A stretch of DNA of 35,374 nucleotides from Bacteroidales bacterium (GTDB lineage: Bacteria; Bacteroidota; Bacteroidia; Bacteroidales; UBA3824), in assembly GCA_024401025.1 (NCBI GenBank), contig JAKSLV010000014.1:1-35374 (forward strand). The letters are read 5' to 3'. Positions 6,515 through 35,223 of the stretch are shown one piece after another. Each line of letters begins with the position of its first letter. Positions within the stretch are counted from its first letter, which is position 1. Under the pieces are notes generated by a model. That model was not told the origin of the DNA and searched no databases. It saw only the letters and a list, made by a program, of their open reading frames with translations. A program made the translations under genes and the position numbers.

Positions 6515-7057
6515 ATGGCATTAGTAGAAAACGGTCGTGACATTTTCGAATCGATGTTCGACAACAAGGTTGTGATTTCATACATCGGGCCTTTCGATGG
6601 TCAGATTCTTTCGCTCCTTGCCTCCAACATCGAGGACTCACTTTGGGGTGATCCTAAGCGCGGCAAAAAGTTCTTCAAGATCTTTATCGAGCTTAGCCAG
6701 AACATCTATCTGTATTCCAAAGAGAAAGCTCACGGTCTCGACAAGTCGGCAGGTGTTGGCCTTATGCTTATAAAGGAATTCGACGAGCATTTCCAGTTCA
6801 TTACCGGAAACCTCGTTGGCAAGAAGGATTACCTGAAACTTACCGAGAAGTGCGACCTCATAATGTCGAAAACCAAGGAAGAGCTCAGGGAGTTTAAGCG
6901 TCAGCAGAGATCGATGCCCCGCGAGTCGGAAACCGACGGCGGAAATATCGGCATCATTCAGTCTACTTTGCTGAGCGGTTATCCTCCTTCATACACTTTC
7001 CACAAGATCGACGATGACAACTATTTCTATATCTTAAGCATTAGGATAGATAAGTAA
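6515..7057 (+). CDS. SiaB-family kinase homologue (DUF6272), diverged
   Basis: The 180-residue cytoplasmic protein resembles the SiaB family, HATPase-fold kinases that phosphorylate the switch protein SiaC in Pseudomonas aeruginosa. The N-box-like helix is present (FIELSQN, E59–N63). The C-terminal glycine motif, GGGGLGFIDMARKSGN in the second homologue at 11598, is altered here to GGNIGIIQSTLLSGYP, so ATP binding or target choice may differ. It lies third in an operon behind two SpoIIE phosphatases and just before a hairpin terminator. That matches the SiaA–SiaB kinase/phosphatase antagonism known from SiaABCD, but no SiaC gene follows it directly. Family assignment is fairly firm; activity is uncertain. 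Confidence 0.8.
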   Translation: MALVENGRDIFESMFDNKVVISYIGPFDGQILSLLASNIEDSLWGDPKRGKKFFKIFIELSQNIYLYSKEKAHGLDKSAGVGLMLIKEFDEHFQFITGNLVGKKDYLKLTEKCDLIMSKTKEELREFKRQQRSMPRESETDGGNIGIIQSTLLSGYPPSYTFHKIDDDNYFYILSIRIDK

Positions 7058-11597: not shown

Positions 11598-12161
11598 ATG
11601 GAAGCGAATATTCATAGCCTCTATCAAAAGGTAAGCAAGGGCAATCTCGTGATCTCTCACGAGGGTGCAATTGACTCTGACCTCATCAGCACCTTTTTGG
11701 CAAAGGTGGAGGATTCGCTTTTGCAGGATGGCGAGAATGCAAAAAGGGTTAGAAAAATCTACAACATTCTTGTCGAAGCTTTGCAGAATTTGTATCACCA
11801 TCAGGAAATCCCGCCTAAGGCTTTCCTGGATTCTATGCAAATCCCTGGGCTTGGCCAGTATGTTTTCTTCGTGATGACAAAGGAAAACAGCGGCAACTAC
11901 AGAGTTACCTGCGGTAATTTTGTTCTTAAGTCCAAGGTAAAGGTTTTGCGTGATAGGATGGAGCAGTTGAACTCTCTGTCTCAGGAGGAATTGAAGGAAC
12001 TCTACAAGATCATCCTAAACAACGACGAGTTTTCCGAGAAGGGTGGCGGTGGTCTTGGTTTTATTGATATGGCGCGTAAGTCGGGCAATAAGTTCGGTTA
12101 TGAGTTTATCAATTTTGACGATAAATTTAATTTCTTTATTTTCGAAGTTCTTGTTAGCTAA
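11598..12161 (+). CDS. siaB: SiaB-family protein kinase (DUF6272)
   Basis: The 187-residue cytoplasmic kinase is of the SiaB family. The N-box-like helix is VEALQN (E60–N64), and the C-terminal glycine-rich motif GGGGLGFIDMARKSGN (149–164) is the family's ATP-lid and target region. SiaB phosphorylates SiaC on a threonine in P. aeruginosa, and here the SiaC homologue follows after only 22 bp. The pair has its own promoter and terminator. This is the canonical copy; the homologue at 6515 has a diverged glycine motif. No SiaA or SiaD gene is adjacent, so the phosphatase must be one of the SpoIIE proteins elsewhere in the window or genome. Confidence 0.87.
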   Translation: MEANIHSLYQKVSKGNLVISHEGAIDSDLISTFLAKVEDSLLQDGENAKRVRKIYNILVEALQNLYHHQEIPPKAFLDSMQIPGLGQYVFFVMTKENSGNYRVTCGNFVLKSKVKVLRDRMEQLNSLSQEELKELYKIILNNDEFSEKGGGGLGFIDMARKSGNKFGYEFINFDDKFNFFIFEVLVS

Positions 12162-12183: not shown

Positions 12184-12567
12184 ATGGATTCAATTAATAT
12201 AGAAGGTACACCCAAAACCCCTACCATCTCTTTCGACGCCAAGTCGGGCAACATCGAGATCAAGGGTCGTTCTATTCCAGAAAACTCTATTGAGTTTTAC
12301 AAGCCTCTTGTTGACTGGCTTGATAAGTTCTCTGACGTGGCTCAGGGCACTGTAAATGTCAACATTCAGCTCGAATATTTCAACACTAGTTCATCTAAGT
12401 GTATTCTCGATGTTTTCAAGAAGCTCGAGAACATTCAGAACAAGAACAAGGCCGAGGTAGTTATCAACTGGTACTACGAGGAGGACGACGAGGACATGCT
12501 GGAGGCCGGCGAGGACTACCAGTCGATTCTCAAGATTCCTTTCAAGATGGTTGAGATTGCCGATTAA
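12184..12567 (+). CDS. siaC: SiaC-family phospho-switch protein (DUF1987)
   Basis: The 127-residue protein is a clear SiaC/DUF1987 member, with the family blocks GRSIPENSIEFYKPLVDWL (about 28–46) and LEYFNTSSSKCILD (about 63–76). In P. aeruginosa SiaC, threonine 68 is phosphorylated by SiaB and dephosphorylated by the SpoIIE-type phosphatase SiaA. The threonine of NTSSSK is also residue 68 here. The fold is a STAS-like anti-sigma-antagonist type. In Pseudomonas the dephosphorylated form activates the diguanylate cyclase SiaD; no GGDEF protein is encoded in this window, so the partner must differ or lie elsewhere. It ends in an acidic stretch (EEDDEDMLEAGED). It is the likely common target of the SpoIIE proteins here (inference). 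Confidence 0.92.
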   Translation: MDSINIEGTPKTPTISFDAKSGNIEIKGRSIPENSIEFYKPLVDWLDKFSDVAQGTVNVNIQLEYFNTSSSKCILDVFKKLENIQNKNKAEVVINWYYEEDDEDMLEAGEDYQSILKIPFKMVEIAD

Positions 12568-21450: not shown

Positions 21451-23373
21451 GTGCGCTCTGCTTTAGTTGCCATATTATTGATGATCAGCAGTCTTGCATT
21501 ATCGCAGCAGGATTATTTCCAGCACATCGAGGAGCTCCGCAAGATGGCGGAGACTGCCAAAGATGAGTTGGCTGATACTCTCTATATGGAAGTGGGGCGC
21601 GCATTTGCCTATACCATGCCTGCTGATGCCATCGTTTATCTGCAAAAATCGCTGGAGCTGGCCGAGAAACACAATCGATACAGGATTATGTGTATGGCCA
21701 ACAGTTTCACCGGAATTGCATATAGTCAGATGGGCAGCTACGCCCAGTCGGTGGAATATTTCAAGAAGCAGCTGAACATCGCCAAGCGGCTTGGTATCCT
21801 CGACGAGGTGGCCTGGGCCAACAGCAACCTAGGTCAGGTTTTGCTCGAAATCAAAAACTACGAGCTGGCCAAGGAATATCTTCAGGAGGCCAACGACCTT
21901 GCCGACCTTATTGGCGACGATTACATGAAGCAGTACGTGTATTCAAATATGGGATGGCTGAAACTGTGTCTGGCCGAGTATCAGGAATCACTTACATTCT
22001 ACGAGAAAGCGCTGGCTATCAGAAAGAAGCATCCTACCGATTCGATAAACCTGGCCGCCAACTACCGCGACATCGGCAACCTCTATTTTGCTCAGAGCGA
22101 TTTCGAAAATGCCAAACTGTATTACAGCCTCAGCAGCAACTACTGCAACACGCTGTTCAGCAGCCTGCTGGCTCCAGTGATGGTGAAACTTTCGTACATC
22201 CACCTTGAATCCGGCAATCTGGATTCTGCCCTCTCTTGCATAAGCCAAGCCCTCGACATGGCCAACCGCGGAGGCGAGAAATCCGTAATCCGCGATGCCT
22301 ACGGAATATACGGCAGCATCTATTACAAGATGGGAAAATTCGACAAGGCCGAGCAATGCTATTCGATGCAGATAGCTTATCACGACAGCGTAAACCTCTC
22401 CGACGTAAGCAAGAAGATTTACGAGCTGCAATTCCACGAGAAGCTGGAATCGCAGAAGCTGGCCCGCGAGACTGCCGAATATCACACGCGCACCTTTGTG
22501 CATCTGGTGATTGCAATTGCCGTATTGCTGATAGCCTCGGTTTTCATAATTTTCTGGCTCAGGAAAAAGAGGATGACGATCAACAGCATGAACCAAGAGC
22601 TGGTCTACAACAACTTGCAGACCAACGAGAGCATCGCCTACGCTCAAAGGATTCAGAAGGCCGTGATGCCCGATCTGGACTGCCTGGATAAGTTTTTTGC
22701 CGACAAGTTCCTCTTTTTCAGGCCCAAGCACGCCGTAAGCGGCAATTTCTACTGGACATTTTCCAACGATGTGTATGGAATGTTGGCCGTATGCGACTCG
22801 GGCGAGGCTGGAATTCCCGGAGGCTGCATCAGCATGCTGGGTCTGTCGGTTTTGCACGAGCTGGCCGAGATTGACGCCGATCCGGCCATAGTGCTGGAGC
22901 TGTACAGGAGGAAGATTGTATCGGCCCTAAAGTCGGTGAGCCACGTGGACGGCGACAGCTACAATGGCTCCGACATCAGCCTTATGGTGATGGACCGCCA
23001 CGAGCCAAGACTCTATTTCTCAGGCGTTAAGCATCCGCTGCTGATAGTGCGGCAGGGCAAATTGTTGCAGTATCAGGAAAACAAAGAAAGCGACTCGTTC
23101 ATTACAAAGGATCTGGAGACCTGCCAGGTGGACCTCCAGGACGGCGATATGATATACCTGATGACTCACGGAATGGCCCGACAGAACAACGCTGACGGAC
23201 AGGAACTTAGTCGTGAGCGGCTTTTCCAGCATATCAGCAGCATCAGCAATCTGCCGATGGAAAAGCAGCATCAGGAACTACTGAAACTGCTGGATGGCTG
23301 GATGGGCAAGCATCCGCAGCAGAGGGACGTGCTGATAATCGGTGTTTTGTATAAACGCGAAATTACAAGATGA
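21451..23373 (+). CDS. TPR–TM–SpoIIE pseudophosphatase, pair 1 first gene
   Basis: The 640-residue envelope protein has a signal peptide (RSALVAILLMISSLALSQ), about seven TPR-like helical repeats outside the cytoplasm (about 35–330), a TM helix (about 350–371), a short signalling helix (SIAYAQRIQKAVMPD) and a SpoIIE-type domain (about 405–640). Catalytic motifs are altered: GDF is GNF (N432), DCTGHG is CDSGEAG, SDG is THG (H573) and the final DD is RD (625–626). Three of the metal-site signatures are therefore lost and it should not be a phosphatase. GTG 21451 is chosen because the paralogues of this array are all 639–642 aa and begin with their signal peptide here. It overlaps the next gene by ATGA, so the two products are made together. 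Confidence 0.88.
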   Translation: MRSALVAILLMISSLALSQQDYFQHIEELRKMAETAKDELADTLYMEVGRAFAYTMPADAIVYLQKSLELAEKHNRYRIMCMANSFTGIAYSQMGSYAQSVEYFKKQLNIAKRLGILDEVAWANSNLGQVLLEIKNYELAKEYLQEANDLADLIGDDYMKQYVYSNMGWLKLCLAEYQESLTFYEKALAIRKKHPTDSINLAANYRDIGNLYFAQSDFENAKLYYSLSSNYCNTLFSSLLAPVMVKLSYIHLESGNLDSALSCISQALDMANRGGEKSVIRDAYGIYGSIYYKMGKFDKAEQCYSMQIAYHDSVNLSDVSKKIYELQFHEKLESQKLARETAEYHTRTFVHLVIAIAVLLIASVFIIFWLRKKRMTINSMNQELVYNNLQTNESIAYAQRIQKAVMPDLDCLDKFFADKFLFFRPKHAVSGNFYWTFSNDVYGMLAVCDSGEAGIPGGCISMLGLSVLHELAEIDADPAIVLELYRRKIVSALKSVSHVDGDSYNGSDISLMVMDRHEPRLYFSGVKHPLLIVRQGKLLQYQENKESDSFITKDLETCQVDLQDGDMIYLMTHGMARQNNADGQELSRERLFQHISSISNLPMEKQHQELLKLLDGWMGKHPQQRDVLIIGVLYKREITR

Positions 23374-25292
23374 CAAGATTTTTTGCAGCCATATTGATTG
23401 CGATTCTTGCGCTGGCGCAGGAGGGCCGCGCGCAGAGAGCCGACCGCGTGCTGGATAGCCTGGAGAGGCTTTCAGCTACGGCCCCTGATTCCCTCTTGCC
23501 ACGTATTTATTATGATATGGCTTGGCAAAACAGGCTTACGAATCCCGTGGGTGGCATGCAATACGCCTTGAAATCCATCGACCTGGCTCTTGCCAACAAC
23601 AACAAGAATTACATCGTTCTGGGATATAACTTGCTGGCTTTCTGCGAGAAATACGCCAATATGCCCGAGACGGCAATGCAGCACTACATTACCGCCAAAG
23701 ACTACGCCGAAAAATTCGGCATCCCTAATCTATGCGGACAATGCTACAACAATCTGGCCCGACTATACCTTGAATACAACGACCTAGAGACCGGCGATTT
23801 TTATCTGAAGAAGGCCGTAAACATTGCCAACGAACTGGGCGACAGCCTTATACAGTCGTATTCGTATCTCAACCTCGGCATCATGTACAAGAAACAGATG
23901 AAATACGATCTTGCCATAGGATACCTTACGGAATCGTATCAGATGCGTGCCGGCAACGAGGACGTGTTCAGCTCGGAGAATTTTGTGCCCCTCTGGCATC
24001 TGGCCGATATCTACATGGAGCGTCAGGAATTCGAGAAATCCAAGAACCTAATGTATATCAGCCTCAACAATCCCAAGATTCAGGAAATGCCTGATTATCT
24101 GTCGCGTATATGGTACAAGCTCAGCCAGATCTATTTCAATACCAATATGCTGGATTCCGCCGAATTTGCCGGGCTTCAGTCGTTGATTCAGGCACGGAAA
24201 TGCCTCAGCATGCTGCGACTGGAAAACACCTGCAAGATTCTGGATTCCATCTATCTGGCCAAGGGCGAGAAGCAGAAAGCCGCCAATATCTGCAAGGAAT
24301 ACATGGATATCTGCGACACCATTTTCAACAGCCAGCTAAGCGACCAATTGCAGAAAATACAGTATTCGTCGGAATATGTGGAGAGCAAGAAAATTGTGGA
24401 TCAGTCGCTTAGCGCAAGAAATATTTCCGTCATCTGGCTAAATATCGCCGTGGTTTTCCTGCTGGTGGTTGCGTGTTCCATCTTTTTGCTGATACTGCGC
24501 AACAGGAAAATCCGCCACCTGAACAGCAGCCTCGTAAGTCAGCGCCAATCGCTTGAGCGTGGCCTCACATACGCCAATGCCATCCAGATGGCTGTGCAGT
24601 CTGATATCTACGACCCCGACACCGTTTTCCGCGACCAGTTTCTCCTGTACATTCCGCGCGACATCGTTAGCGGCGATTTCTTCTGGCGATATTCCGACAT
24701 GCATCACGAGATGCTTGTAGTGGCCGATTGCACGGGTCACGGTGTGCCGGGCGCATTGCTTACGATGCTTGGCACTTCGATGCTTCAGGATATGGCAACA
24801 TCGGGCATCAGGAATTCCGGCGAGATGCTCAACGAGCTGAGGCTGCGCATAAAGGCAATGCTGGGCGCCAACCAGTTAAACCGCATGCAGGACGGTATGG
24901 ATATTTCGCTGATAATAATCGACCGCGCCACTATGACTCTGGATTTTGCCGGAGCCTACAATTCGCTCTGGTATATCCGCGATGGCCAGTTTGGCGAGCT
25001 TAAGGCAAACCGCTGTCCGATAGGCGAGTATGTTTTGGAGAAGAGTTTCGAGAGCAAGTATCTGCAGCTCTGCCCCGGCGATATGATATATATGCTGAGC
25101 GACGGATACACCTCGCAGTTTGGCGGCAGCGACAACAGCAAGATTTCCAGCCGTCAGCTAAAGGCCATTCTGCTGGAAAACAATGGGAAATCTATGGCCG
25201 AGATCCGGGAAATCCTTTTGAAAAAATTCAACGATTGGAAAGGTCAGAATCCTCAGATTGATGATGTAACAATTGCCGGTTTCAGGTTCTGA
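23370..25292 (+). CDS. TPR–TM–SpoIIE phosphatase, pair 1 second gene (active-site complete)
   Basis: The 640-residue partner has a signal peptide (MTRFFAAILIAILALAQEGRAQ), TPR-like repeats (about 35–330), a TM helix (about 351–374), a linker helix (GLTYANAIQMAVQSD) and a SpoIIE domain with every metal motif: VSGDFFW (D436), ADCTGHGVPGA, SDG and DDVT. It should dephosphorylate Ser/Thr of a cytoplasmic switch protein under control of a periplasmic signal. The ATG overlaps the upstream TGA. Closest relatives in the window are 27377 and 33301, which occupy the same second position in their pairs. Confidence 0.92.
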   Translation: MTRFFAAILIAILALAQEGRAQRADRVLDSLERLSATAPDSLLPRIYYDMAWQNRLTNPVGGMQYALKSIDLALANNNKNYIVLGYNLLAFCEKYANMPETAMQHYITAKDYAEKFGIPNLCGQCYNNLARLYLEYNDLETGDFYLKKAVNIANELGDSLIQSYSYLNLGIMYKKQMKYDLAIGYLTESYQMRAGNEDVFSSENFVPLWHLADIYMERQEFEKSKNLMYISLNNPKIQEMPDYLSRIWYKLSQIYFNTNMLDSAEFAGLQSLIQARKCLSMLRLENTCKILDSIYLAKGEKQKAANICKEYMDICDTIFNSQLSDQLQKIQYSSEYVESKKIVDQSLSARNISVIWLNIAVVFLLVVACSIFLLILRNRKIRHLNSSLVSQRQSLERGLTYANAIQMAVQSDIYDPDTVFRDQFLLYIPRDIVSGDFFWRYSDMHHEMLVVADCTGHGVPGALLTMLGTSMLQDMATSGIRNSGEMLNELRLRIKAMLGANQLNRMQDGMDISLIIIDRATMTLDFAGAYNSLWYIRDGQFGELKANRCPIGEYVLEKSFESKYLQLCPGDMIYMLSDGYTSQFGGSDNSKISSRQLKAILLENNGKSMAEIREILLKKFNDWKGQNPQIDDVTIAGFRF

Positions 25293-25296
25293 AATT

Positions 25297-25334
25297 AAGG
25301 TTTCGCACATATATCACAGATAACACAGATTTTA
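25297..25334 (+). repeat. Interspersed intergenic repeat, copy 3
   Basis: AAGGTTTCGCAC (25297–25308) followed by ATCACAGATAACACAGATT units, the same order as copy 1 (1–100, opposite strand). It begins just after the stop of pair 1 and lies upstream of the pair 2 promoter. Confidence 0.6.
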
Positions 25335-25374
25335 TTTTAATTTCGTAACTTCGCTGATAAATTATTTGATTTTT

Positions 25375-25406
25375 TTTGTTTTTTAACATTTTTGTTCATA
25401 AATTTG
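25375..25406 (+). promoter_or_regulatory. Promoter for TPR–SpoIIE pair 2
   Basis: TTTG (25375–25378), 20 nt, then TAAATTTG (25399–25406): a full consensus promoter. It rules out the in-frame TTG at 25376 as start and points to ATG 25424 or 25433. Confidence 0.75.
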
Positions 25407-25432
25407 CAGATAAAACCAACTTGATGGAAATT

Positions 25433-27361
25433 ATGCTCAAGCGTTTTACTGCAATCATATTATCATTACTATTATTCAACAACTTGTTGAGGGCTCAGGA
25501 TTACGGCTCATATATCGACAGTCTCGAGAAAGTGGCCGCCCGTGTAAATCCTTCCTCCGATACCGCCGCTTCAGTCTATCTGAACGTGGCCCGTACCATT
25601 CTGTATCAGAGTCCCCGTCTTGCGTTCAAGTATCTGCACAAGGCCATCGACGGCTTTGAGGCCAAGCAAGATTATCACGGAATCTGCATGAGCTATAGTT
25701 TTCTGGGCATTGCATACGGTCAGCTTGGCAATTTCGAGAAGGCGTTCGAGAATTTCAACATTCAGATGCATTTGGCCAAAGAGCACAACGTTTTGGACGA
25801 ATACGTCTGGGCCAACAACAATCTGGGCCACTCGATGTTGCTGCTCAAGAATCCCGTACTGGCCAAGCCTTATATTATGGAGGCCCTCCGCAGGGCTCCC
25901 GAGGTGGATGTGCCTCATCTTCTGCACAATATCTATTTCAACGTAGGTTCCATGTATCACCTCCAAAACGAGTATGATTCCTCCATCTACTGGTACACTC
26001 AATGTCTGGAGCTGAGGCTTACCGAGAAGGAATCCGACAACAAGTCGATAGCCGCCGCCTACCGCGATATGGGAAACGTTTATTATTCCTGCAACGATTA
26101 TGCAAAGGCCATGGAATGTTATCGCCTAAGCGATTCCTTAGTGGCCAACGAATTCACCGACATCCCTGCCGGAATCAATTCTTACCGCGCCAGCATCTAT
26201 CTGAACAGCAACAAGTTGGATTCGGCATATTATTTCGCCAACAAGGCCATAGAGGTAGCCAGGATTTTCAACAGCCGCGATGTGCTGAGGTATTCCTACG
26301 GAGTGCTCGGGCGCATATTTTCAGCATCAGGGCAGTATCAGGAAGCCGAAAAAGCTTTTGCCAAGCAGATACTCTACAACGATTCCATAGTATCGGAAAA
26401 CACATCGTGGGTGATTTTCGAGAACGAGTTCAAACGCGAGATCGACCGGCAGAACACCGACATCCGCGAGGTGGAAGGCAACGTGAGAACCAACGCATTG
26501 ATTTGCATAATAATAGTGGTGGTTTTGCTGGCCTTGGTGATTCTGTATTTCCGCATCAAGAGCAAGAGCCGCATAATAAATTCCATAAACAAGGAGATGG
26601 ACGAGCACGACGCACAGATGAACACCAGCCTGCGCTATGCCAGCATGGTGCAGAAGATTGTGCTTCCCGATTTTGCCGAGATGGACGGCCTCTGCCTTCA
26701 GAAATTCCTCATCTACGACCCCAAGAAGGAGATAAGCGCCGATCTTTTCTGGCAGTATCAGAAAAGCGAGAACCTCTTCATGTTTGCCGTGGGGGGGTGC
26801 GGAATTCCCGATTTCAAGGGCGCATGCATCACTATGATAGCCACATCGCTTCTCTACGAGTCGGCATCGCAGGCATCTGATATAGAGGGCCTTGTGGAGC
26901 TGGCAAGGCATAAATTCATGTCGATTATCCGAAACCTGAATATCGAATCGGAATATTCCCAAAGCTCAGATATCAGCATTGCCTCGGTGGACCGCGAGAG
27001 CCGCCTGCTGCGTTTCCTCGGAGTCAAATGCCCTCTGGTGATAGTCAGGAACGGCTCTTTGATAATCTACAACGAGAATGCCGAACCCGGAAGCTGCCTC
27101 TTCAACGCGCGGCTGCTTACCGACGAGATAGAGCTGAAGCCGGGCGATTCGGTATATTTCATGACCCAGGGTTTCTGCAATCAGACCGGCGAAAAGGACG
27201 GCAAGCCTTTCTCACTTAACCGCCTTTACGCTCTGCTGCTGGAGATAAGCGATAAGCCGATGGACATGCAGGAGCAGTTGCTTAGGAAAGCCCTAAGCGA
27301 CTGGCGAGGAAGCCGCGAGCAGGATTTCGACGTCACCATTGCGGGATTCAAGTTTTTTTAA
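25433..27361 (+). CDS. TPR–TM–SpoIIE pseudophosphatase, pair 2 first gene
   Basis: The 642-residue protein has a signal peptide (MLKRFTAIILSLLLFNNLLRAQ), TPR-like repeats (about 35–330), a TM helix (about 355–374), a linker helix (SLRYASMVQKIVLPD) and a strongly diverged SpoIIE domain. The first motif is ISADLFW (D437 kept, Gly lost). The second is GGCGIPDFKGA in place of DCTGHGVPGA, so the Asp is lost. The third is TQG (Q579) and the last is DFDVT. It is the most diverged of the three first-position proteins but shares their TPR region (ICMSYSFLGIAYGQLG). ATG 25424 is an alternative start three codons upstream. The second gene of the pair starts 15 bp later. Confidence 0.87.
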   Translation: MLKRFTAIILSLLLFNNLLRAQDYGSYIDSLEKVAARVNPSSDTAASVYLNVARTILYQSPRLAFKYLHKAIDGFEAKQDYHGICMSYSFLGIAYGQLGNFEKAFENFNIQMHLAKEHNVLDEYVWANNNLGHSMLLLKNPVLAKPYIMEALRRAPEVDVPHLLHNIYFNVGSMYHLQNEYDSSIYWYTQCLELRLTEKESDNKSIAAAYRDMGNVYYSCNDYAKAMECYRLSDSLVANEFTDIPAGINSYRASIYLNSNKLDSAYYFANKAIEVARIFNSRDVLRYSYGVLGRIFSASGQYQEAEKAFAKQILYNDSIVSENTSWVIFENEFKREIDRQNTDIREVEGNVRTNALICIIIVVVLLALVILYFRIKSKSRIINSINKEMDEHDAQMNTSLRYASMVQKIVLPDFAEMDGLCLQKFLIYDPKKEISADLFWQYQKSENLFMFAVGGCGIPDFKGACITMIATSLLYESASQASDIEGLVELARHKFMSIIRNLNIESEYSQSSDISIASVDRESRLLRFLGVKCPLVIVRNGSLIIYNENAEPGSCLFNARLLTDEIELKPGDSVYFMTQGFCNQTGEKDGKPFSLNRLYALLLEISDKPMDMQEQLLRKALSDWRGSREQDFDVTIAGFKFF

Positions 27362-27376
27362 TTGAAATTGATTTTT

Positions 27377-29296
27377 ATGCACAGATACATTTTATCCATA
27401 TTGCTGATGCTTGCCCTATCGATGGGCAGCGCATTCTCGCAGAAAGGCAAGGCCGACATCGACAGCCTGGAGAATCTGGCCGCAAGTGTGGGCGACTCGT
27501 TGAGGATTGGCATCTACAACGAGCTGTCGATGCTTTACCGTCACTTTAATCCGGGTAGGGGAATGGATTACGCATCCAAGGCCATCTACCTATCCGAGCA
27601 GCTTAACAATCCGGAGATGCTGGCCAAGTCGTACTTTACGCTGGCCATCAGCGAGAGAAATCTCGATATGGAGATGAAGGCGCTGGAACATTTCCAGAAG
27701 GTTCTATCAATTGCCCGCTACAACGACCTCGACGATATGATAGGGCAGGCCTGCAACAACGTGGCGCGCATGCACCTGGTCCTCAACAATCTAGACAGCG
27801 TTCAGCCCTACATCATAGAGGCGTGGGAGGTGGCCGACGAAACCAGGGACCTAAACACATTATCGTACGTGTTCCTGAATTCCGGAATCATGTATTCCAA
27901 AAGCGGCAACCTCGATTCTGCCATCACACTGCTTAAGGCCTCGTACGTAATAAGGCACGATTCGCTGGGCATATCCACCGATTTTCTTATGCCGCTTTGT
28001 CATCTCTCTGATATCTATGTAAAGAAAAAAGATTACGCCAAGGCCAAAGACTGCCTTAATATGTGCCTATCCAACAAAGGTTTCAGTCAGTGGGATTTTT
28101 TCCATTCAAAGATTTGGCTGATGCTTGCCTCTATTTATTACAAGGAGGGCAGGATGGATTCGGCCGAGTATGCTACTCAGAAATCCGTGGAGCAGTCGCT
28201 CAACTGCAAAAACCTGAAGTGTCTTGAGCTTGCCTACAAGCTTCTGGATTCCATATATTTGAGCACCGGCGATTATCAGAAAGCATCAGAGGCCTGCAGC
28301 AGCTTCATGGACCTGAACGATACTCTCTACAACAAGTTTCTGGAGGAACAGCTCTCCAACATTCAGCACACTACCAACTACATCGCCAACAATCAGACGC
28401 TCAATCAGTCGAAATCTCACCGGCAGGTGGTTTTCATAATTCTGGCGTCGGTGGCGTTGGCGCTTCTTGCCGCCATTCCCTTCATCGCAAAGATCATCAG
28501 GAGCAACCGCCGCATCAACCAGCTCAACAAAGACATGGGCACAAAGCGACTCCAGCTGATGAACGGCCTCAACAACACTTACGCTCTCCAGATGGCTCTC
28601 CAGCCCACCAACGAGGAACTCGGCGAGGTGTTTCTTGAGATGTTTCTTTTGTATATGCCGCGCTACGTGGTGAGCGGCGATTTCTTCTGGAAACAGACCG
28701 CCGGCGAATACGAGATTATCGCCGTGGCCGATTGCGCAGGTCACGGAATGCCGGGCGCGATGCTCACTATGCTGGGCATCTGCACCATCAACGATATTGT
28801 GGCCAAGGGCGAAACCCGTGCCGATGTAATTCTTGAGAAACTCAGGGAAAGGATCAAGTCGCTGATGAGCACCAACGCCCTCAACAAGATGACCGACGTA
28901 ATGGACATATCGCTGGTATCGGTACACAGGAAAACTATGACTATGGAGTTTGCCGGAGCTTGCAACTCGCTCTTCTACACCCGAAACGGCAAAATGTACA
29001 GGCTTTCGGCCACGCCTTGCGCCATTGGCGATAATCCCGACGAGCCGGAGTTTGCATCGCAGAAATTGGAGCTCCGCATCGGCGACTGCATCTACATGAT
29101 GACCGACGGATACTGGAGTCAGCTTGGCGGACCCGACAAAACCAAGATGCAGATGGTTCAGTTTCTCGACATCCTCCTGAGCATCCATCAGAAATCCATG
29201 AACGAGCAGAAAGAAATCCTCGAAACCTTCTACCGCGAGTGGCAGGGCGCCAACGAGCAGGTCGACGACGTTACCGTGGTGGGTTTCAGAGTCTAG
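27377..29296 (+). CDS. TPR–TM–SpoIIE phosphatase, pair 2 second gene (active-site complete)
   Basis: The 639-residue protein has a signal peptide (MHRYILSILLMLALSMGSAFSQ), TPR-like repeats (about 35–330), a TM helix (about 352–374) and a SpoIIE domain with VSGDFFW (D435), ADCAGHGMPGA, TDG and DDVT, i.e. all metal-binding aspartates. The DCTGHG threonine is Ala here, which is outside the metal site. ATG 27377 is used; a TTG five codons earlier is in frame but weaker. The last 11 bp overlap the 3' end of the convergent Ser/Thr kinase gene, so transcripts of the two will be complementary at their ends. Confidence 0.91.
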   Translation: MHRYILSILLMLALSMGSAFSQKGKADIDSLENLAASVGDSLRIGIYNELSMLYRHFNPGRGMDYASKAIYLSEQLNNPEMLAKSYFTLAISERNLDMEMKALEHFQKVLSIARYNDLDDMIGQACNNVARMHLVLNNLDSVQPYIIEAWEVADETRDLNTLSYVFLNSGIMYSKSGNLDSAITLLKASYVIRHDSLGISTDFLMPLCHLSDIYVKKKDYAKAKDCLNMCLSNKGFSQWDFFHSKIWLMLASIYYKEGRMDSAEYATQKSVEQSLNCKNLKCLELAYKLLDSIYLSTGDYQKASEACSSFMDLNDTLYNKFLEEQLSNIQHTTNYIANNQTLNQSKSHRQVVFIILASVALALLAAIPFIAKIIRSNRRINQLNKDMGTKRLQLMNGLNNTYALQMALQPTNEELGEVFLEMFLLYMPRYVVSGDFFWKQTAGEYEIIAVADCAGHGMPGAMLTMLGICTINDIVAKGETRADVILEKLRERIKSLMSTNALNKMTDVMDISLVSVHRKTMTMEFAGACNSLFYTRNGKMYRLSATPCAIGDNPDEPEFASQKLELRIGDCIYMMTDGYWSQLGGPDKTKMQMVQFLDILLSIHQKSMNEQKEILETFYREWQGANEQVDDVTVVGFRV

Positions 29297-31220
29297 TAAT
29301 CAGTATTTTGGCCTCCTCGTTGTCTTGGTCGGCCGATTGTTTTATCCAGAATTTTGCGCTGTTGCGGTCCTTGGCGGTTCCTGTGCCGTACAGGTAGCAT
29401 TTTCCAAGCTTCAGCTCGCCCTCTGGCAGTCGGCAGTTGGCGGCCCGCTGGTAATATTCGAATGCCATCTCAGGATTTTTCTGCACTCCTTTGCCCTCCA
29501 TGTAGCAGTCGCCTATGTAGCACATTCCCACGGGGTTGTTTAGGTCGGCGGCCTTCTGATACGATTTTACGGCGTCGTCATATTTTCCGCTGTTGTAATA
29601 GTTGTCGCCCTCGTCTATCCACACAAAATATTGGCACAGAGGCGATTCGTTGTTGTTTTTGGCAAAGTCGGGATCTTTCTCCTGACAAATCTCCCAATAT
29701 TCGTTTGCCTTTCTGTAGTTTCCTATCTGAGCGTAAATCTGGCCCTTGGCCTCCAGCAGGCTTATGTCGGTAGGCCTCAGCTCCAGAGCCTGGTCGATGT
29801 ATTTGAGGGCCACGGCCGGCGATAGGGTAGTGCCCTTTCCGTAGGCGTAGCAGAGCGAAAGTCCGCGCAGCGCCTCGCACCTCAGGGCCTGGTCGCCGCT
29901 GTTGCTCAGTTTCTTGAAAATCTCCACCGCATCCTTGTAACGCTCTGGCTGCCTGTAATATTCCCAGGCCAGCTCTATCTCGCTCTTGCTGCTCTCGGCA
30001 GGAGCCTGTGCCTCGCTTTGCGCAGCCTGTCCGCTTGTTCTCGTGGCCAGATACACCACGCCCGTGGCTATCAGTCCCAAAATCAGGAGCGCGGCAAACA
30101 CGGCGCCCCATTTCACTCGGGTTTTCTTCACGGGTTTTCCTGATGCTGCTGTTGCAGGTGTGGGCTGATGCTGCGGCTGTATCTGCGGAGCCTGCGGAAT
30201 TGGTGCAGGCTGATGCTTCTCCAATTTAAAGTTCAGCATCGCGGTCACCATGTTGTAGTCCAGATTGTGCTTGGCCACCATGGCGTTCAGATAGTTGCGT
30301 TCGGCGTCAGTGACCTTGCCGTCGGCGGCTATCTCGTCTATCAGGCTCACCACCTCTGCCGGAATGTCGGATTTCTTTATGTTTAGGTCGCTGATAATCT
30401 CGCTGCAATTCCTGTAGCGTCCCAGTTTGGCAGGGTTCAGGCACTTGTCGGCAATCTTCCTAAGCTGTGGGTCCCTGATGCCGAGGCTCACTGTAGAGAA
30501 CTGTCCCGTAAGCAGTTCCACCATCACCAGGCCGAACGCGTAGATGTCGCTCTGCTGGTCGATGTTGGCGGAGTTTATCTTCTGCTCGGGGCTCATGTAT
30601 TTCTTGCTGCCGGCCAGCCTCAGCCTCTCGGCAAACTGGTCGCTGATGGCCAGGCCGAAATCTATGATCTTCACATTCCTGTTGCGGTTGGCTATCATTA
30701 TGTTTTCGGGCTTCAGGTCGCGGTGTATCACGCCGTTGCGGTGCACGTATTGCAGTCCGTTAAGTATCTGGGTAAGGATCTCCAGCTGGTCGGCGGTGTT
30801 GGTGATTTCGTTGGCGGCAATTATCTGCGCCAGGCTCTTGCCGTCGATGTATTCCATCGAATACCATGGACCCTGAGCATCCTCGCCCATGCTGCGCGCC
30901 GATACTATGTTCTCGTGGCTCAGCTGCCTCAGGTTTGTGAATTCCTGTGCAAAGAGGCCGCGGAATTCAGGGTTTTGGCGCTGTGCGGGCTTTATGCGTT
31001 TCACCACCTCGCGGAAGTTGCTCTTTGGGTAATAGCGGCAATACAGGTCACCCATTGCGCCCTTGTCGCTAATCAGGGTGTCCTGGTATTCGTCGGGGTT
31101 GGGATTTGGGCTTTCTCCTCCTCCTCCTCCTGAGGCTTCGTTTCCTACAAATCCGCTGCCCAGCGGGTTTACGCTTATGAAACCCGAATCTCCGTTTATG
31201 AATCCGCTGTTGCTGTCCAT
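29286..31220 (-). CDS. Hanks-type Ser/Thr kinase with TM and TPR/Sel1 repeats
   Basis: The 644-residue protein has an N-terminal low-complexity stretch (three S-G-F motifs, then five Gly) and a eukaryote-like kinase domain (about 48–275). K74 in VVKRI, HRDLKPEN (D168) and DFG are intact, so it should be active; the glycine loop is unusual (DKGAMGDLY). A TerB-like helical segment follows (about 287–330; IAADGKVTDAERNYL), then a Pro/Gln linker, one TM helix (about 373–393), and C-terminal TPR then Sel1-like repeats (about 410–644) outside the cytoplasm. It is the natural antagonist of SpoIIE/PP2C phosphatases. It lies on the minus strand between TPR–SpoIIE pairs 2 and 3, with its own promoter, converging on pair 2 and diverging from pair 3. 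Confidence 0.92.
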   Translation of the reverse strand: MDSNSGFINGDSGFISVNPLGSGFVGNEASGGGGGESPNPNPDEYQDTLISDKGAMGDLYCRYYPKSNFREVVKRIKPAQRQNPEFRGLFAQEFTNLRQLSHENIVSARSMGEDAQGPWYSMEYIDGKSLAQIIAANEITNTADQLEILTQILNGLQYVHRNGVIHRDLKPENIMIANRNRNVKIIDFGLAISDQFAERLRLAGSKKYMSPEQKINSANIDQQSDIYAFGLVMVELLTGQFSTVSLGIRDPQLRKIADKCLNPAKLGRYRNCSEIISDLNIKKSDIPAEVVSLIDEIAADGKVTDAERNYLNAMVAKHNLDYNMVTAMLNFKLEKHQPAPIPQAPQIQPQHQPTPATAASGKPVKKTRVKWGAVFAALLILGLIATGVVYLATRTSGQAAQSEAQAPAESSKSEIELAWEYYRQPERYKDAVEIFKKLSNSGDQALRCEALRGLSLCYAYGKGTTLSPAVALKYIDQALELRPTDISLLEAKGQIYAQIGNYRKANEYWEICQEKDPDFAKNNNESPLCQYFVWIDEGDNYYNSGKYDDAVKSYQKAADLNNPVGMCYIGDCYMEGKGVQKNPEMAFEYYQRAANCRLPEGELKLGKCYLYGTGTAKDRNSAKFWIKQSADQDNEEAKILITRL

Positions 31221-31260
31221 GGTTTTATATTAGTTTGGTCTGATACTTTTTTAGAATACG

Positions 31261-31292
31261 CAAATGTATGTTTTTTTTCGTTCAACTCCAAA
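31261..31292 (-). promoter_or_regulatory. Promoter for the Ser/Thr kinase
   Basis: The minus strand has TTTG (31289–31292), 20 nt, then TACATTTG (31261–31268): a full consensus match, about 40 nt from the ATG at 31220. It is back-to-back with the candidate pair 3 promoter. Confidence 0.75.
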
Positions 31293-31311
31293 TATTTTGA
31301 TGCGGAAATAC

Positions 31312-31343
31312 GTTGCTGAAGCTGCCTTTTGGATTGATTTTTG
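31312..31343 (+). promoter_or_regulatory. Candidate promoter for TPR–SpoIIE pair 3
   Basis: GTTG (31312–31315), 20 nt, then GATTTTTG (31336–31343); each element has one mismatch. It lies 35 nt before GTG 31379 and overlaps the in-frame TTG at 31313, which is therefore unlikely to be the start. Confidence 0.45.
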
Positions 31344-31378
31344 CTTGGATATTGTGCGAAAGGTTAATTTTTTTTCAC

Positions 31379-33304
31379 GTGTTTCGCTATACATTAATAA
31401 CAATTCTATTGTCAATCAGCTGTCTTGCGTATTCGCAGGAGAGTTATGGCCCGCGCACCGACAGTCTTCTCAATCTGGCGCGCAATGCCACTCGCGACGT
31501 TGCCGACTCCCTGTATATGGAGGCTGGCCGAAGTCTTGCGTACGTTAGGCCCGTGGATGCCATCGGCCTTCTTAACAAAGCCCTCGACCTGGCCGAGCGC
31601 AACGAGAACCACAAGATTATGTGCATGGCCCACAGCTTTATCGGCATTGCCTACAACCGTATGGGAAGCCTCAACATGGCCGTTGAGTATTACAACAATC
31701 AGCTCAACATCGCCAAGCAATACGGCATCGACGACGAGGTGGCCTGGGCCAACAACAATATCGGACTCCTGCTCCTTCACCTAAGGAATCTTGAATTCGC
31801 CAACATCTATCTACAGGAAGCCAAAGAGCTTGCCGAGCAAATCGGCGACGACTACATGCTGCAATACGTGTATTCCAACATCGGATGGTACAAGCTGGAG
31901 ATGGAGGAATACGATTCGTCGGTATGCTATTTCAATATGGCGCTCGATATCAGGATGAAACCGCCCGTAGACAATATCGTTGTGGCAGCATCCTACCGCG
32001 ACCTCGGCAACGTGTATTTTGCGCAACATTCCTACGCCGAGGCCAAATATTACTACGGACTCAGCAATACATGGGTTGACACCATCACCTCCGATATGTC
32101 GGCGGCCATCAACGTAAACATGGCGCGCATCTACATCGACGAGCACAAGCCTGATTCAGCCCTCTACTGCGCCCACAAGGCCGTGGGATGCGCCCGAAGG
32201 TTTGTGGACAGGATGGTGCTCCGCGATGCCTTTGGAGTGATGGGCAGCATTTATTATCAGCAGGGCAAATACGAGGACGCCAACCGCTGCTACAATAGTC
32301 AGATTCTCTATCAGGATTCGGTGAAACTCACCAACCTCACCGACAAGATCTACAACCTCCAGTATCAGAAACAGGTGGCTGACCAGAAGGATAACATCCG
32401 TATGGCTCAGGAACATACGCAGCAGTACGGCATTGTGGCGCTGGTGGTGATAGCTCTGGTGATTGGCGGAATGTATTTCCATTTCAGGCTCAGATCCAAG
32501 CGCCGTCAGATTATCAAGATCAACAATGCCATCTCGGAGCATAATGTCCAGATAGATAAGAGTATGGCCTACGCCAAGAAGATTCAGATGGCCGTAATCC
32601 CCGATTTCGACAAGGTGAACATTACCGTTCCAAACAAGTTCCTGCTCTTCAAGCCCAAGCACGAGGTTAGCGGAAATTTCTACTGGGCTCAGAACAAGGG
32701 CAGCGTAAGGATGCTGGCAATCTGCGATTCGGGCGAGGCCGGTGTGCCGGGCGCTTTCATGAGCATGCTCTGCTCGTCGATGCTGTTCGATGTTTCTACC
32801 CACGAGAACGATCCAGCCAAGATTCTCACACTCCTGCGAGAGAAGATGCTTCAGGTAATCAGGAAATACAGTTTCACAACGGCCACTGCCAATGGCGTCG
32901 ACATCAGCCTTCTGGTGATGGACCTTAGGAATACGATGCTCTATTATTCGGGCGTAAAGTTCCCCATGCTGCTGATACGCGATGGAGTTGCAAACCTTGT
33001 TCAGGACAACGACGAGAGCGCAAGTTTCTACGACACCGATTTCCAGACGTCGGCCGTGGAGGCCAATCCCGGCGATTCCATCTACATCATGACCCACGGC
33101 CTCAGCCTCCAGAAAAACCCCGACGGCCAGGAGCTATCGCGCGAGAGGCTTTTTAGCTATATCCTCAGCATCAGCCAACAGCCAATGAAGGCACAGAAAG
33201 CCCTGATACTGAGTTTCTTCGACCAATGGAGGGGCGATGTGGCCCAGCAGCGCGACCTGCTGTTGGCTGGCGGCGTATATCCTAACAAATTCCGAACCTT
33301 ATGA
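31379..33304 (+). CDS. TPR–TM–SpoIIE pseudophosphatase, pair 3 first gene
   Basis: The 641-residue close paralogue of the pair 1 first gene has a signal peptide (FRYTLITILLSISCLAYSQ), TPR-like repeats (about 35–330; shared IMCMAHSFIGIAYNRMG block), a TM helix (about 350–369), a linker helix (SMAYAKKIQMAVIPD) and a SpoIIE domain lacking metal ligands: GNF (N433), CDSGEAG, THG (H573) and RD. The substitutions are the same as in the pair 1 protein, so they are conserved rather than random decay. GTG 31379 is chosen since it immediately precedes the signal peptide and gives the array's standard length. It overlaps the next gene by ATGA. Confidence 0.88.
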   Translation: MFRYTLITILLSISCLAYSQESYGPRTDSLLNLARNATRDVADSLYMEAGRSLAYVRPVDAIGLLNKALDLAERNENHKIMCMAHSFIGIAYNRMGSLNMAVEYYNNQLNIAKQYGIDDEVAWANNNIGLLLLHLRNLEFANIYLQEAKELAEQIGDDYMLQYVYSNIGWYKLEMEEYDSSVCYFNMALDIRMKPPVDNIVVAASYRDLGNVYFAQHSYAEAKYYYGLSNTWVDTITSDMSAAINVNMARIYIDEHKPDSALYCAHKAVGCARRFVDRMVLRDAFGVMGSIYYQQGKYEDANRCYNSQILYQDSVKLTNLTDKIYNLQYQKQVADQKDNIRMAQEHTQQYGIVALVVIALVIGGMYFHFRLRSKRRQIIKINNAISEHNVQIDKSMAYAKKIQMAVIPDFDKVNITVPNKFLLFKPKHEVSGNFYWAQNKGSVRMLAICDSGEAGVPGAFMSMLCSSMLFDVSTHENDPAKILTLLREKMLQVIRKYSFTTATANGVDISLLVMDLRNTMLYYSGVKFPMLLIRDGVANLVQDNDESASFYDTDFQTSAVEANPGDSIYIMTHGLSLQKNPDGQELSRERLFSYILSISQQPMKAQKALILSFFDQWRGDVAQQRDLLLAGGVYPNKFRTL

Positions 33305-35223
33305 TCAGATTCACTCACATATTAATATTGGCGGCGTTGCTGCTGTGTCAGCAGGCCGTGGCACAGCGGCCTCAGGATCGTATCGACAGCATGGAGCAGG
33401 TGGCTGAGGCTGCCTCTGAGGAGGACCTGCCGCGCATACTCCTCGACATTGCCTACGAATGCAGGATAACCAGCCCGATACGCGGAATACAGAACGCGCT
33501 GAGGGCGATGGACGTGGCCGAGGACAACGGCGACCTCTATTACATAGTGGAATCGTATAATCTGCTCGCCCTCAACGAGAGGTACTCCAAGATGGAAAAC
33601 GAGGCGCTCAACCATTACAAGATGGCGCTCAGGAAGGCTCAGGAATTCGGCTTGGAAGATCTCTACGACAAATGCTACAACAACGTGGCCCGTATGTGTC
33701 AGGAGCTTGGCGATATGGATGGATCCAGGCCGATGATAGATTCGGCTTTCGTATATGCCAAGCTCACCGAGGACACTCTGGAGCTGAGCAACGCGTATCT
33801 TCATTTGGGACTCTGGATGCACCGCAACGGCAAAGAGGAGCTGGCTCTGGGATATCTGAAGGAATCATTCAATATGCGCGAGATGGTGTTGCCGCCATAC
33901 GACCTTGAGCGACTGATACCTCTCTGGCACATGGCTGACATCTACGTGGAGCAGAAGGAGTATCAGAAGGCCAGAGACCTCATAAATATGAACTTCCAGA
34001 ACTCGCAGCTGTCGCAATGGCACGATTTCATGTCGAGATTGTGGTACAAGCTGGCGCAGATTTATTATATGGAGAATATGCTGGATTCGGCGGAATACAC
34101 CCTGGAGCGGGCCATGCAGGAGAGCGTGTTCTGCATGGATGTTCAGAAAATGGCCATCACATCCAAGCTGATGAACAGGATTTATGTGGCCAAGGGCGAT
34201 TTCAAGAAGGCAGCCGACATATCGCACCGCTTTATGGAAACCAGCGACATGATTTTCAATCAGGAGCTTTACGATCAGTTTATAAAGATACAGTATACCG
34301 ACGAGTATCAGGACAACGAGAAAAGCATCTCGCTGCAGCACACACGACGCAACACGGCCATAGTATTGTTGCTGTTTGCGCTGCTGGCAATGGTGGGAAG
34401 CCTGATATTCTATTTTGTGATGGTGAGGAGCAACAAGGAGATCTCTCAGCTAAACAAGGACCTGGGCCGCAAGCAAACCACCATGCAGCACAGGCTAAAA
34501 TACGCCCACGCCATTCAGATGGCCATCCAGCCCGACTTGAAGGAGTTTGGCGAGGTTTTCAGCGACAAGTTCCTCCTCTACATTCCGCGCGACATCGTGA
34601 GCGGCGATTTCTTCTGGAAATTCAGCGACGATAACCATGAGATGCTAGTGGTGGCCGACTGCACGGGTCACGGTGTGCCGGGTGCGATGCTTACGATGCT
34701 GGGAACATCAATACTTCAGACTCTGGCATCTTCGGGAATGAGGAAGGCCGCCGAGGTGCTTCAGGAACTGAGGGCAAGGATAATATTCCTGATGGGCGTA
34801 AACTCCGTAAACAAGATGCAGGACGGTATGGACATATCGCTGATAGTGATTGACAAGGCCACGATGAAACTCGACTACGCCGGCGCGTACAACAATCTGG
34901 TGTACATCCGCGATGGCGAGCTTCACGAGATTAAGGCCACACGCTGCCCCATTGGCGAATACATCGTGGAGCCGCCTTTCAAGAGTCAGGAGCTTCAGCT
35001 TCAGAAAGACGACTGCATCTACATCATGAGCGATGGCTACGCATCCCAGTTTGGCGGCGACGACAACAGGAAATACTCTCAACGAAAGCTTCTGAAACTT
35101 CTGCTTGAGCATCACAAGGAGCCGATGGCCGATTTCTGCAAATTGCTGAAAAAGCATTTCAACGACTGGCGCGGCAACTGCGAGCAGGTGGACGACGTTA
35201 CGGTGGCAGGCTTCAGGGTGTAG
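33301..35223 (+). CDS. TPR–TM–SpoIIE phosphatase, pair 3 second gene (active-site complete)
   Basis: The 640-residue protein has a signal peptide (MIRFTHILILAALLLCQQAVAQ), TPR-like repeats (about 35–330), a TM helix (about 351–374), a linker helix (RLKYAHAIQMAIQPD) and an intact SpoIIE domain: VSGDFFW (D436), ADCTGHGVPGA (D453), SDG (D578) and DDVT (D631/D632). It is very similar to the pair 1 second gene in length, motif position and domain sequence. The ATG overlaps the upstream TGA. It is the last gene of the array; a new promoter follows. Confidence 0.93.
   Translation: MIRFTHILILAALLLCQQAVAQRPQDRIDSMEQVAEAASEEDLPRILLDIAYECRITSPIRGIQNALRAMDVAEDNGDLYYIVESYNLLALNERYSKMENEALNHYKMALRKAQEFGLEDLYDKCYNNVARMCQELGDMDGSRPMIDSAFVYAKLTEDTLELSNAYLHLGLWMHRNGKEELALGYLKESFNMREMVLPPYDLERLIPLWHMADIYVEQKEYQKARDLINMNFQNSQLSQWHDFMSRLWYKLAQIYYMENMLDSAEYTLERAMQESVFCMDVQKMAITSKLMNRIYVAKGDFKKAADISHRFMETSDMIFNQELYDQFIKIQYTDEYQDNEKSISLQHTRRNTAIVLLLFALLAMVGSLIFYFVMVRSNKEISQLNKDLGRKQTTMQHRLKYAHAIQMAIQPDLKEFGEVFSDKFLLYIPRDIVSGDFFWKFSDDNHEMLVVADCTGHGVPGAMLTMLGTSILQTLASSGMRKAAEVLQELRARIIFLMGVNSVNKMQDGMDISLIVIDKATMKLDYAGAYNNLVYIRDGELHEIKATRCPIGEYIVEPPFKSQELQLQKDDCIYIMSDGYASQFGGDDNRKYSQRKLLKLLLEHHKEPMADFCKLLKKHFNDWRGNCEQVDDVTVAGFRV

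Follow-up and report, generated by a model that had tools for sequence, protein, structure and literature searches.

The contig analysed here (JAKSLV010000014.1, 35,374 nucleotides, hereafter the window, and C46 among the contigs of its genome G000) belongs to a 2.84 Mb, 75% complete assembly of an uncultured member of the Bacteroidales, and carries at 21451–35223 three tandem pairs of paralogous genes, whose six products each combine tetratricopeptide repeats (TPR), a transmembrane segment and a SpoIIE-type phosphatase domain. In every pair the first gene has lost metal ligands of the phosphatase active site and the second has kept them. Such pairs recur within the genus, where phylogenetic tests make it appear that the catalytic domain has been inactivated at least three times separately (lineages A, B and C), and to judge from their sequences the dead members look like retained pseudoenzymes, not genes in decay. 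We favour, with moderate confidence at best, the reading that each pair would form a two-subunit membrane receptor-phosphatase, the dead domain serving as dimer partner of the live one.

Dead and active members of the TPR–SpoIIE pairs

The six genes of the window are:

21451–23373, + strand: pair 1, first gene; GTG start, longest open reading frame from 21412; TPR, transmembrane segment, linker helix, pseudo-SpoIIE domain
23370–25292, + strand: pair 1, second gene; TPR, transmembrane segment, intact SpoIIE domain; ATGA overlap with the first
25424–27361, + strand: pair 2, first gene; TPR, transmembrane segment, pseudo-SpoIIE domain with D457 kept
27377–29296, + strand: pair 2, second gene; TPR, transmembrane segment, intact SpoIIE domain; ATG 15 bases past the stop of the first
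31313–33304, + strand: pair 3, first gene; longest open reading frame, start uncertain (translation probably begins some 60 bases after 31313); TPR, transmembrane segment, pseudo-SpoIIE domain
33301–35223, + strand: pair 3, second gene; TPR, transmembrane segment, intact SpoIIE domain; ATGA overlap with the first

A first-pass annotation, made from the letters of the window, had described these six paralogues as three two-gene units, two coupled by ATGA and one across a 15-bp gap, and both the architecture and the junctions hold. All six proteins belong to the SpoIIE/PPM family, matching the PF07228 profile at 30.8–83.3 bits (curated cut-off 25), and all exceed the cut-offs of TPR profiles. 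Hydropathy scanning places a membrane segment directly N-terminal of the phosphatase domain in all six, and a further hydrophobic segment at the N-terminus of five, because of which the TPR part is most likely periplasmic.

Active-site residues were mapped through sequence alignments onto SiaA-PP2C (PDB 6K4E), whose site is described as D457, D474, C475 (by its carbonyl), G477, D600, G601 and D653 (PMC7647112). The three second proteins of the window retain all seven residues, in agreement with the metal motifs first read from them. The first proteins of pairs 1 and 3 carry D457N, G477E, D600H and D653R and keep D474; that of pair 2 carries D474G, G477I, D600Q and D653F and keeps its aspartate at D457, in SADLFW. 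The ligand loss reported in the first-pass annotation is therefore real, and its motif 1 order has to be corrected to GNF, ADL, GNF. It had also taken the substitutions common to the first genes of pairs 1 and 3 as evidence for a role, an argument we do not retain, since these genes are paralogues and their substitutions not independent. In full-length comparison, firsts are closest to firsts and seconds to seconds, pairs 1 and 3 being 47% identical in both positions.

The genome holds 46 matches to PF07228, equivalent to 45 genes, and in six of these one or more of the four acidic ligands (D457, D474, D600 and D653) are missing. Five of the six stand upstream in TPR pairs, of which the window holds three and contig C135 two, a concentration beyond what chance would give; the downstream members of all five pairs are intact. 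The five dead upstream genes are related, and thus do not stand for five independent events.

We extended the survey to the genus as delimited in the genome collection used (19 genomes), the only one of its family there, fetching the strongest full-length matches of a profile built from 11 of the proteins and then 20 weaker ones. Among the matches listed, every one of the 19 genomes is represented at 1e-75, in some cases by the catalytic part only. At least 12 TPR pairs are present in 8 of the 19 genomes, so that the pairing does recur in relatives, a point that the first-pass annotation had proposed to check. Seven are of type A (G000 has five, G009 and G016 have one apiece) and five of type B (G001, G007, G008, G015 and G018). 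At least one acidic ligand is missing from 11 of the 12 firsts, which are therefore not classed as phosphatases, and none is missing from any of the 12 seconds. The extent of the loss varies: type B firsts lose only D600 among the four, the window firsts three, and the first at C135 12832 two. D474 is kept in 11 of 12 firsts and G601 in all, and D600 is replaced by H, Q, P, K, N or G. The dead gene precedes the active one in all 12 pairs. Eleven firsts are unbroken; the type B first L084 555–2593 is split by a frame change in the assembly, which may be a sequencing error. Among 32 unpaired TPR relatives in the genus (12 in one set and 20 in another) no ligand is missing (0/32), GHG being altered in five (L076–L079 and L152) and two (L147 and L149) adjoining another intact SpoIIE gene.

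Searches at the level of the order covered 393 genomes, with two or three candidates scored in each. Other families yielded 25 loci with 30 SpoIIE genes, all with the four ligands; 20 of the loci hold a single SpoIIE gene and five hold two neighbouring intact ones. As these are top matches, the sample is biased to intact genes. The dead/active pairing is thus observed in one genus only, against a biased sample elsewhere in the order. A predominance of single genes at homologous loci had been named in advance as a finding that would speak against the pairs; it is seen in this biased sample, and within the genus the pairing recurs.

Separate origins and retention of the dead domains

Scanning five further genomes of the genus (G008, G009, G016, G002 and G006) with PF07228 revealed a third lineage, type C, which was sought in these five and in G000. 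It consists of a four-gene run, at L123 534–7284 (G016) and L164 1954–8361 (G002), made of an active membrane phosphatase (748 and 756 amino acids), a dead member (753 and 695 amino acids, ligands HNND and HTNG) and two short SpoIIE genes. PF07228 gives no match to the dead member of L123, and so can miss type C dead members, and a Pfam scan of the two L123 proteins named no sensor domain. The last short gene of the run has TDS for SDG, as do the genes at C113 6869 and L117 2730.

Catalytic-domain trees were built from 53 rows (without C46_125) and, with type C included, from 65 rows (without C46_125, C169 and C163, which are divergent or long). In the 53-row tree the type B firsts form one clade (100/97), the type B seconds another (100/98), and the two are joined (100/99); of the five G000 firsts, four fall into one clade (100/100), and the corresponding four seconds into another (100/99). 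The same tree splits the type A firsts into two groups, and the 65-row tree, whose rows include 12 of the 32 unpaired relatives, unites the 14 type A rows (94/93); neither its type A clade nor its type B clade contains an unpaired gene. Using the approximately unbiased (AU) test, with C46_125 left out, a single ancestral first-position clade of all 12 firsts was rejected for the catalytic domain (p = 4.5e-7), as was a single clade of all 12 seconds (p = 1.3e-4); clades of the type A firsts (p = 0.32) and of the type A seconds (p = 0.39) were not. On the 65-row tree, the dead members of A and C as one clade (p = 8.6e-6) and those of B and C as one clade (p = 1.7e-4) were likewise rejected. It is because of these rejections that lineages A, B and C appear to represent at least three separate inactivations in the genus, and at each origin the dead catalytic domain is akin to the lineage of its own partner. 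Separate origins of the inactive forms had been named beforehand as a result that would refute a paired receptor. They are found, in three lineages and without a single first-position clade; we read them instead as convergence favouring a role for the dead copy.

The history of the sensor part is less certain than that of the catalytic domain. When the TPR parts are used for the tree, a branch (94/96) sets the seven type A seconds apart, and all but one of the seven type A firsts group together (82/91). For the four G000 pairs the first and second clades branch in the same order, and this match fits duplication of a pair. The first-pass annotation had proposed such matching clades as a check: in G000 four pairs bear it out, and the placement of the fifth (C135 6946/8983) is less clear. 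For the TPR part one type B clade was not rejected (p = 0.26), and the p values for all firsts and all seconds as one clade were 0.027 and 0.39. As these tests are weaker than the catalytic ones, the pair itself may be older and shared, the catalytic domains having been replaced in type B.

Ratios of non-synonymous to synonymous substitution rates (dN/dS) were estimated for the catalytic part by the Nei-Gojobori method; dS is near or above 1, and the L082 versus L083 comparisons are saturated, so that the ratios are rough. With this reservation, the type B firsts gave 0.144 (bootstrap 0.07–0.23), 0.127 and 0.147, and the type B seconds 0.057, 0.160 and 0.097. Catalytic residues have been lost while the fold is under purifying selection, as expected of a pseudoenzyme, within the roughness of these ratios. 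Identity was then compared region by region (seven firsts and seven seconds for type A, four and four for type B). Among firsts and among seconds respectively, the TPR part is 30 and 29% identical in type A and 59 and 46% in type B, the linker helix 37 and 34% and 70 and 54%, and the catalytic domain 31 and 51% and 53 and 79%; unmatched type B rows (four firsts, five seconds) give the same picture. The difference between linker and catalytic domain was reached in neither lineage by any of 10000 column shuffles, nor by any same-length block (0/195 and 0/193), the linker having been picked out for this test after the region table had been seen. Relaxation is, on these alignments, limited to the phosphatase domain, the TPR part and linker of the dead members being at least as conserved as those of their partners in both A and B. 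Retention and not decay, as the first-pass annotation had argued on other grounds, is thus favoured by the type B catalytic ratios (0.13–0.15) together with TPR and linker conservation. Within a pair the TPR parts are only 17–32% identical (11 pairs); the two would therefore be different sensors, and a pair could read two signals.

A proposed receptor with two sensors and one active site

Single-chain models were obtained for the first protein of pair 1 (37 rows; mean predicted local distance difference test, pLDDT, 85.7; predicted template-modelling score, pTM, 0.56) and the second protein of pair 3 (33 rows; 87.4 and 0.52). Both contain the TPR helices, one long helix that includes the membrane segment, and a PPM fold. 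The long helix spans residues 316–405 in the former and 301–409 in the latter, with block pLDDT of 65–92 and hence moderate confidence in places; both models thus have the continuous helical linker into the PPM domain that is typical of RsbU. The best PDB fold matches of both are the two SiaA-PP2C chains (better chain E = 1.6e-15 and 5.8e-20; template-modelling scores by target 0.87 and 0.90). In sequence searches, 6K4E is the only match of the pair 3 second at 1e-3 (1.2e-32) and the best of 26 matches of the pair 1 first (4.6e-17). The two members examined thus have a SiaA-like PP2C domain both in sequence and in fold, the dead one included.

We propose that each pair encodes a two-subunit membrane receptor-phosphatase. 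By sequence and by the models, both subunits carry a TPR sensor, probably periplasmic, a transmembrane segment within a long helix leading to a cytoplasmic linker, and a PPM domain of the SiaA/RsbU type. The PPM domain of the first subunit probably cannot hold the catalytic metals and that of the second can, as far as ligands mapped on the SiaA structure tell. The two subunits would pair through the linker/switch-helix interface known for SiaA, SpoIIE and RsbU dimers. Because sensor, membrane helix and linker are kept and the active site is not, the dead domain could be the partner that the single live domain needs for dimerisation and by which its switch is set, and a receptor with only one active site would then respond to two distinct TPR inputs. 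SiaC-like phosphoproteins are perhaps what it dephosphorylates. The most specific form of this proposal, in which the dead domain is an obligate activating subunit reached by convergence at least three times in the genus, with live/dead heterodimers joining two sensors to one output, is tentative, and we hold it at somewhat under even confidence.

Several observations weigh against this proposal. The switch helices (462–499 of the pair 3 second) are more weakly conserved among firsts than among seconds (28 versus 45% in type A, 61 versus 83% in type B; ratios 0.63 and 0.73), and therefore the proposed interface is not wholly kept; homodimers of each protein are possible. Between the type A paralogues of pairs 1 and 3, dN/dS is higher, at 0.336 for the firsts and 0.254 for the seconds. 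In L074, one of the firsts, none of the four acidic ligands is lost, the sole difference being GHG to GRG. The TPR tree places the type B firsts with the unpaired intact L086 (95/98) and not with the type B seconds, and a simple tandem duplication therefore does not account for the full length of the type B genes. The order of the genes, which the first-pass annotation had given as always inactive then active, is constant in the TPR pairs and reversed, active then dead, in both type C pairs (2/2). Tandem SpoIIE genes with both members intact also occur, in this genome, in the genus and in other families: the nine same-strand SpoIIE junctions of G000 comprise the five TPR pairs, the space between pairs 1 and 2, and three junctions (C113, C24 and C46 1659/4042) with all four ligands in each gene, the second gene at C113 having GHG changed to GCG and SDG to TDS. 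Tandem order alone therefore does not mean a dead member. Lastly, no SiaC or DUF6272 gene lies in the flanks scanned, on at least one side of 11 of the 12 TPR pairs, so that the substrate is guessed from gene numbers.

The dead subunit might also be a brake, the heterodimer being off and a signal-driven exchange to live/live homodimers turning the phosphatase on. The same anatomy and conservation would be expected, and an activating and an inhibiting partner would look alike in sequence; we nevertheless judge a brake unlikely. The ATGA overlap in pairs 1 and 3 is a hint that the two proteins are made in balance, and heterodimers at all times would then be the likelier state. One might alternatively imagine the first protein as a substrate trap, binding phosphorylated SiaC-like proteins without hydrolysis and competing with its active partner, and the fold kept in the model and the 15 SiaC matches in the genome would suit it. 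A conserved binding pocket would be expected in that case, and we therefore find a trap quite improbable: the old active-site loops have the lowest first/second identity ratios of type A (0.52, 0.54 and 0.53), and the residues that replace D600 differ from one first to another.

That the firsts are still enzymes, with altered metal chemistry, seems very doubtful to us; the ligands lost by the window firsts (three of four) and by C135 12832 (two), and the lack of a common new residue pattern, argue against it, and the retention of D474 and G601, the single ligand loss of type B and the intact ligands of L074 argue for it. We give scarcely any credence to the firsts being relaxed duplicates on their way to loss, devoid of a phosphatase-related role and persisting by chance. 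The lower catalytic identity among firsts and the frame-split L084 (one of 12) could be so explained. The low catalytic dN/dS of type B firsts, the 11 unbroken genes, the three origins, and TPR, transmembrane and linker regions about as conserved as in the partner speak against it.

Pseudoenzyme partners are well known for kinases. Dimerisation control of bacterial SpoIIE/PPM phosphatases has been described only recently (PMC12143880). Three origins, in two of which (A and B, the lineages measured) constraint has eased on the catalytic domain but not on sensor and linker, amount to a natural experiment on the contribution of a dimer partner, bearing on whether one active site per dimer is enough and whether the helices of the partner set activity.

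Gene context and known systems

Other genes of the window that bear on substrates and opposing enzymes are:

6515–7057: DUF6272 protein, one of two encoded in the window
11598–12161, + strand: DUF6272 protein, profile match
12184–12564, + strand: SiaC-family protein, a candidate kind of substrate, profile match
29286–31220, − strand: serine/threonine kinase carrying TPR/Sel1 repeats; lies between pairs 2 and 3 and shares 11 bases with the end of pair 2

The genome has 15 SiaC and 14 DUF6272 matches (the latter being the family of the kinase SiaB), against two HATPase_c_2 (RsbW-like) and three Pkinase matches, and on contig C178 a SpoIIE, a DUF6272 and a SiaC gene stand in a row, as in siaABC. 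On the strength of these numbers and of the C178 run, SiaC-type partner switching is perhaps the output. In the window, the neighbouring DUF6272 and SiaC genes at 11598–12161 and 12184–12564 precede pair 1 by some 9 kb. As far as the flanks scanned show, the pairs do not sit in a gene cluster of the SiaA type, where siaB and siaC are accompanied by a diguanylate cyclase gene, no genome-wide search for diguanylate cyclases having been made. Among the flanks at C135, L075, L080–L083 and on one side of L074 (L084 being left out), the only gene types in common are PFK and HMGL-like genes, present at the type B loci L081 and L082. The kinase at 29286–31220, which the first-pass annotation of the pairs does not mention, was considered as an opposing enzyme; it is one of the three Pkinase matches, and as the other flanks scanned hold no protein kinase, no link to the pairs is claimed. 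HATPase_c_2 kinases were also set aside as opponents, with two matches in the genome only, a DUF6272 opponent seeming likelier.

The SpoIIE family as a whole is much expanded, with 40 to 55 matches per genome in G000, G002, G006, G008, G009 and G016, and some of its members show further oddities. The sixth ligand-deficient gene of G000, at 125–1288 (− strand) of the window, is a degenerate SpoIIE with no recognised sensor, whose neighbouring pair has a DUF4154-PAS-SpoIIE architecture. Such a gene stands beside a tandem intact SpoIIE pair in four genomes of the genus (also L114 1613–2743, L166 2070–3155 and L109 6690–7631), its ligands being DNDN in three and partial, DR--, in L109. The G016 gene L120 3301–5544 is without D600 and is divergent from two intact genes. 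Motif 2 reads GDCNxxG in L126 101–2125, L112 3102–5150, L118 2993–5014 and L165 2301–4322; the two of these genes scanned (L126 and L112) have CHASE4. A gene of 386–391 amino acids follows in L112, L118 and L165 (the contig ends in L126), without a Pfam match in the two scanned (L112 and L118).

The first-pass annotation knew of no described system of this form, and nor did we find a bacterial active/dead SpoIIE pair in the literature searched, which reached little into subscription journals. Among eukaryotic proteins, PHLPP2 and TAB1 are pseudophosphatases with a PP2C fold and a diverged metal site; neither is known to have an active membrane phosphatase paralogue as its partner. The accessible portion of a survey of bacterial PP2C phosphatases reports no such bacterial pair (PMC12088040). 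SiaA of Pseudomonas aeruginosa (6K4E) gives the best match in sequence and fold to the two members examined, and both the window and the genome hold SiaC and DUF6272 genes. SiaA-PP2C is a single active protein, a homodimer in the crystal that forms through helices 1–3 (PMC7647112), whereas here TPR sensors are joined to a dead/active pair. With RsbU the pairs share an alpha-helical linker into the PPM domain. In RsbU the linkers form a coiled coil through which the phosphatase domains dimerise via the switch and are activated, a control proposed to be general (PMC12143880), and the switch sets metal binding (PMC8080068); in what these sources describe, RsbU and SpoIIE form dimers of one protein with itself, with no dead paralogue as partner. 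RssB of Escherichia coli is the closest bacterial precedent we have met, a pseudo-phosphatase derived from the PPM family that has retained regulation through linker and switch after losing activity (PMC12143880). It differs in being C-terminally truncated, in acting as an adaptor for sigma S and in having no active paralogue as partner. The dead/active unit is, among these systems, a variant of the dimeric SpoIIE/SiaA-type sensor phosphatases.

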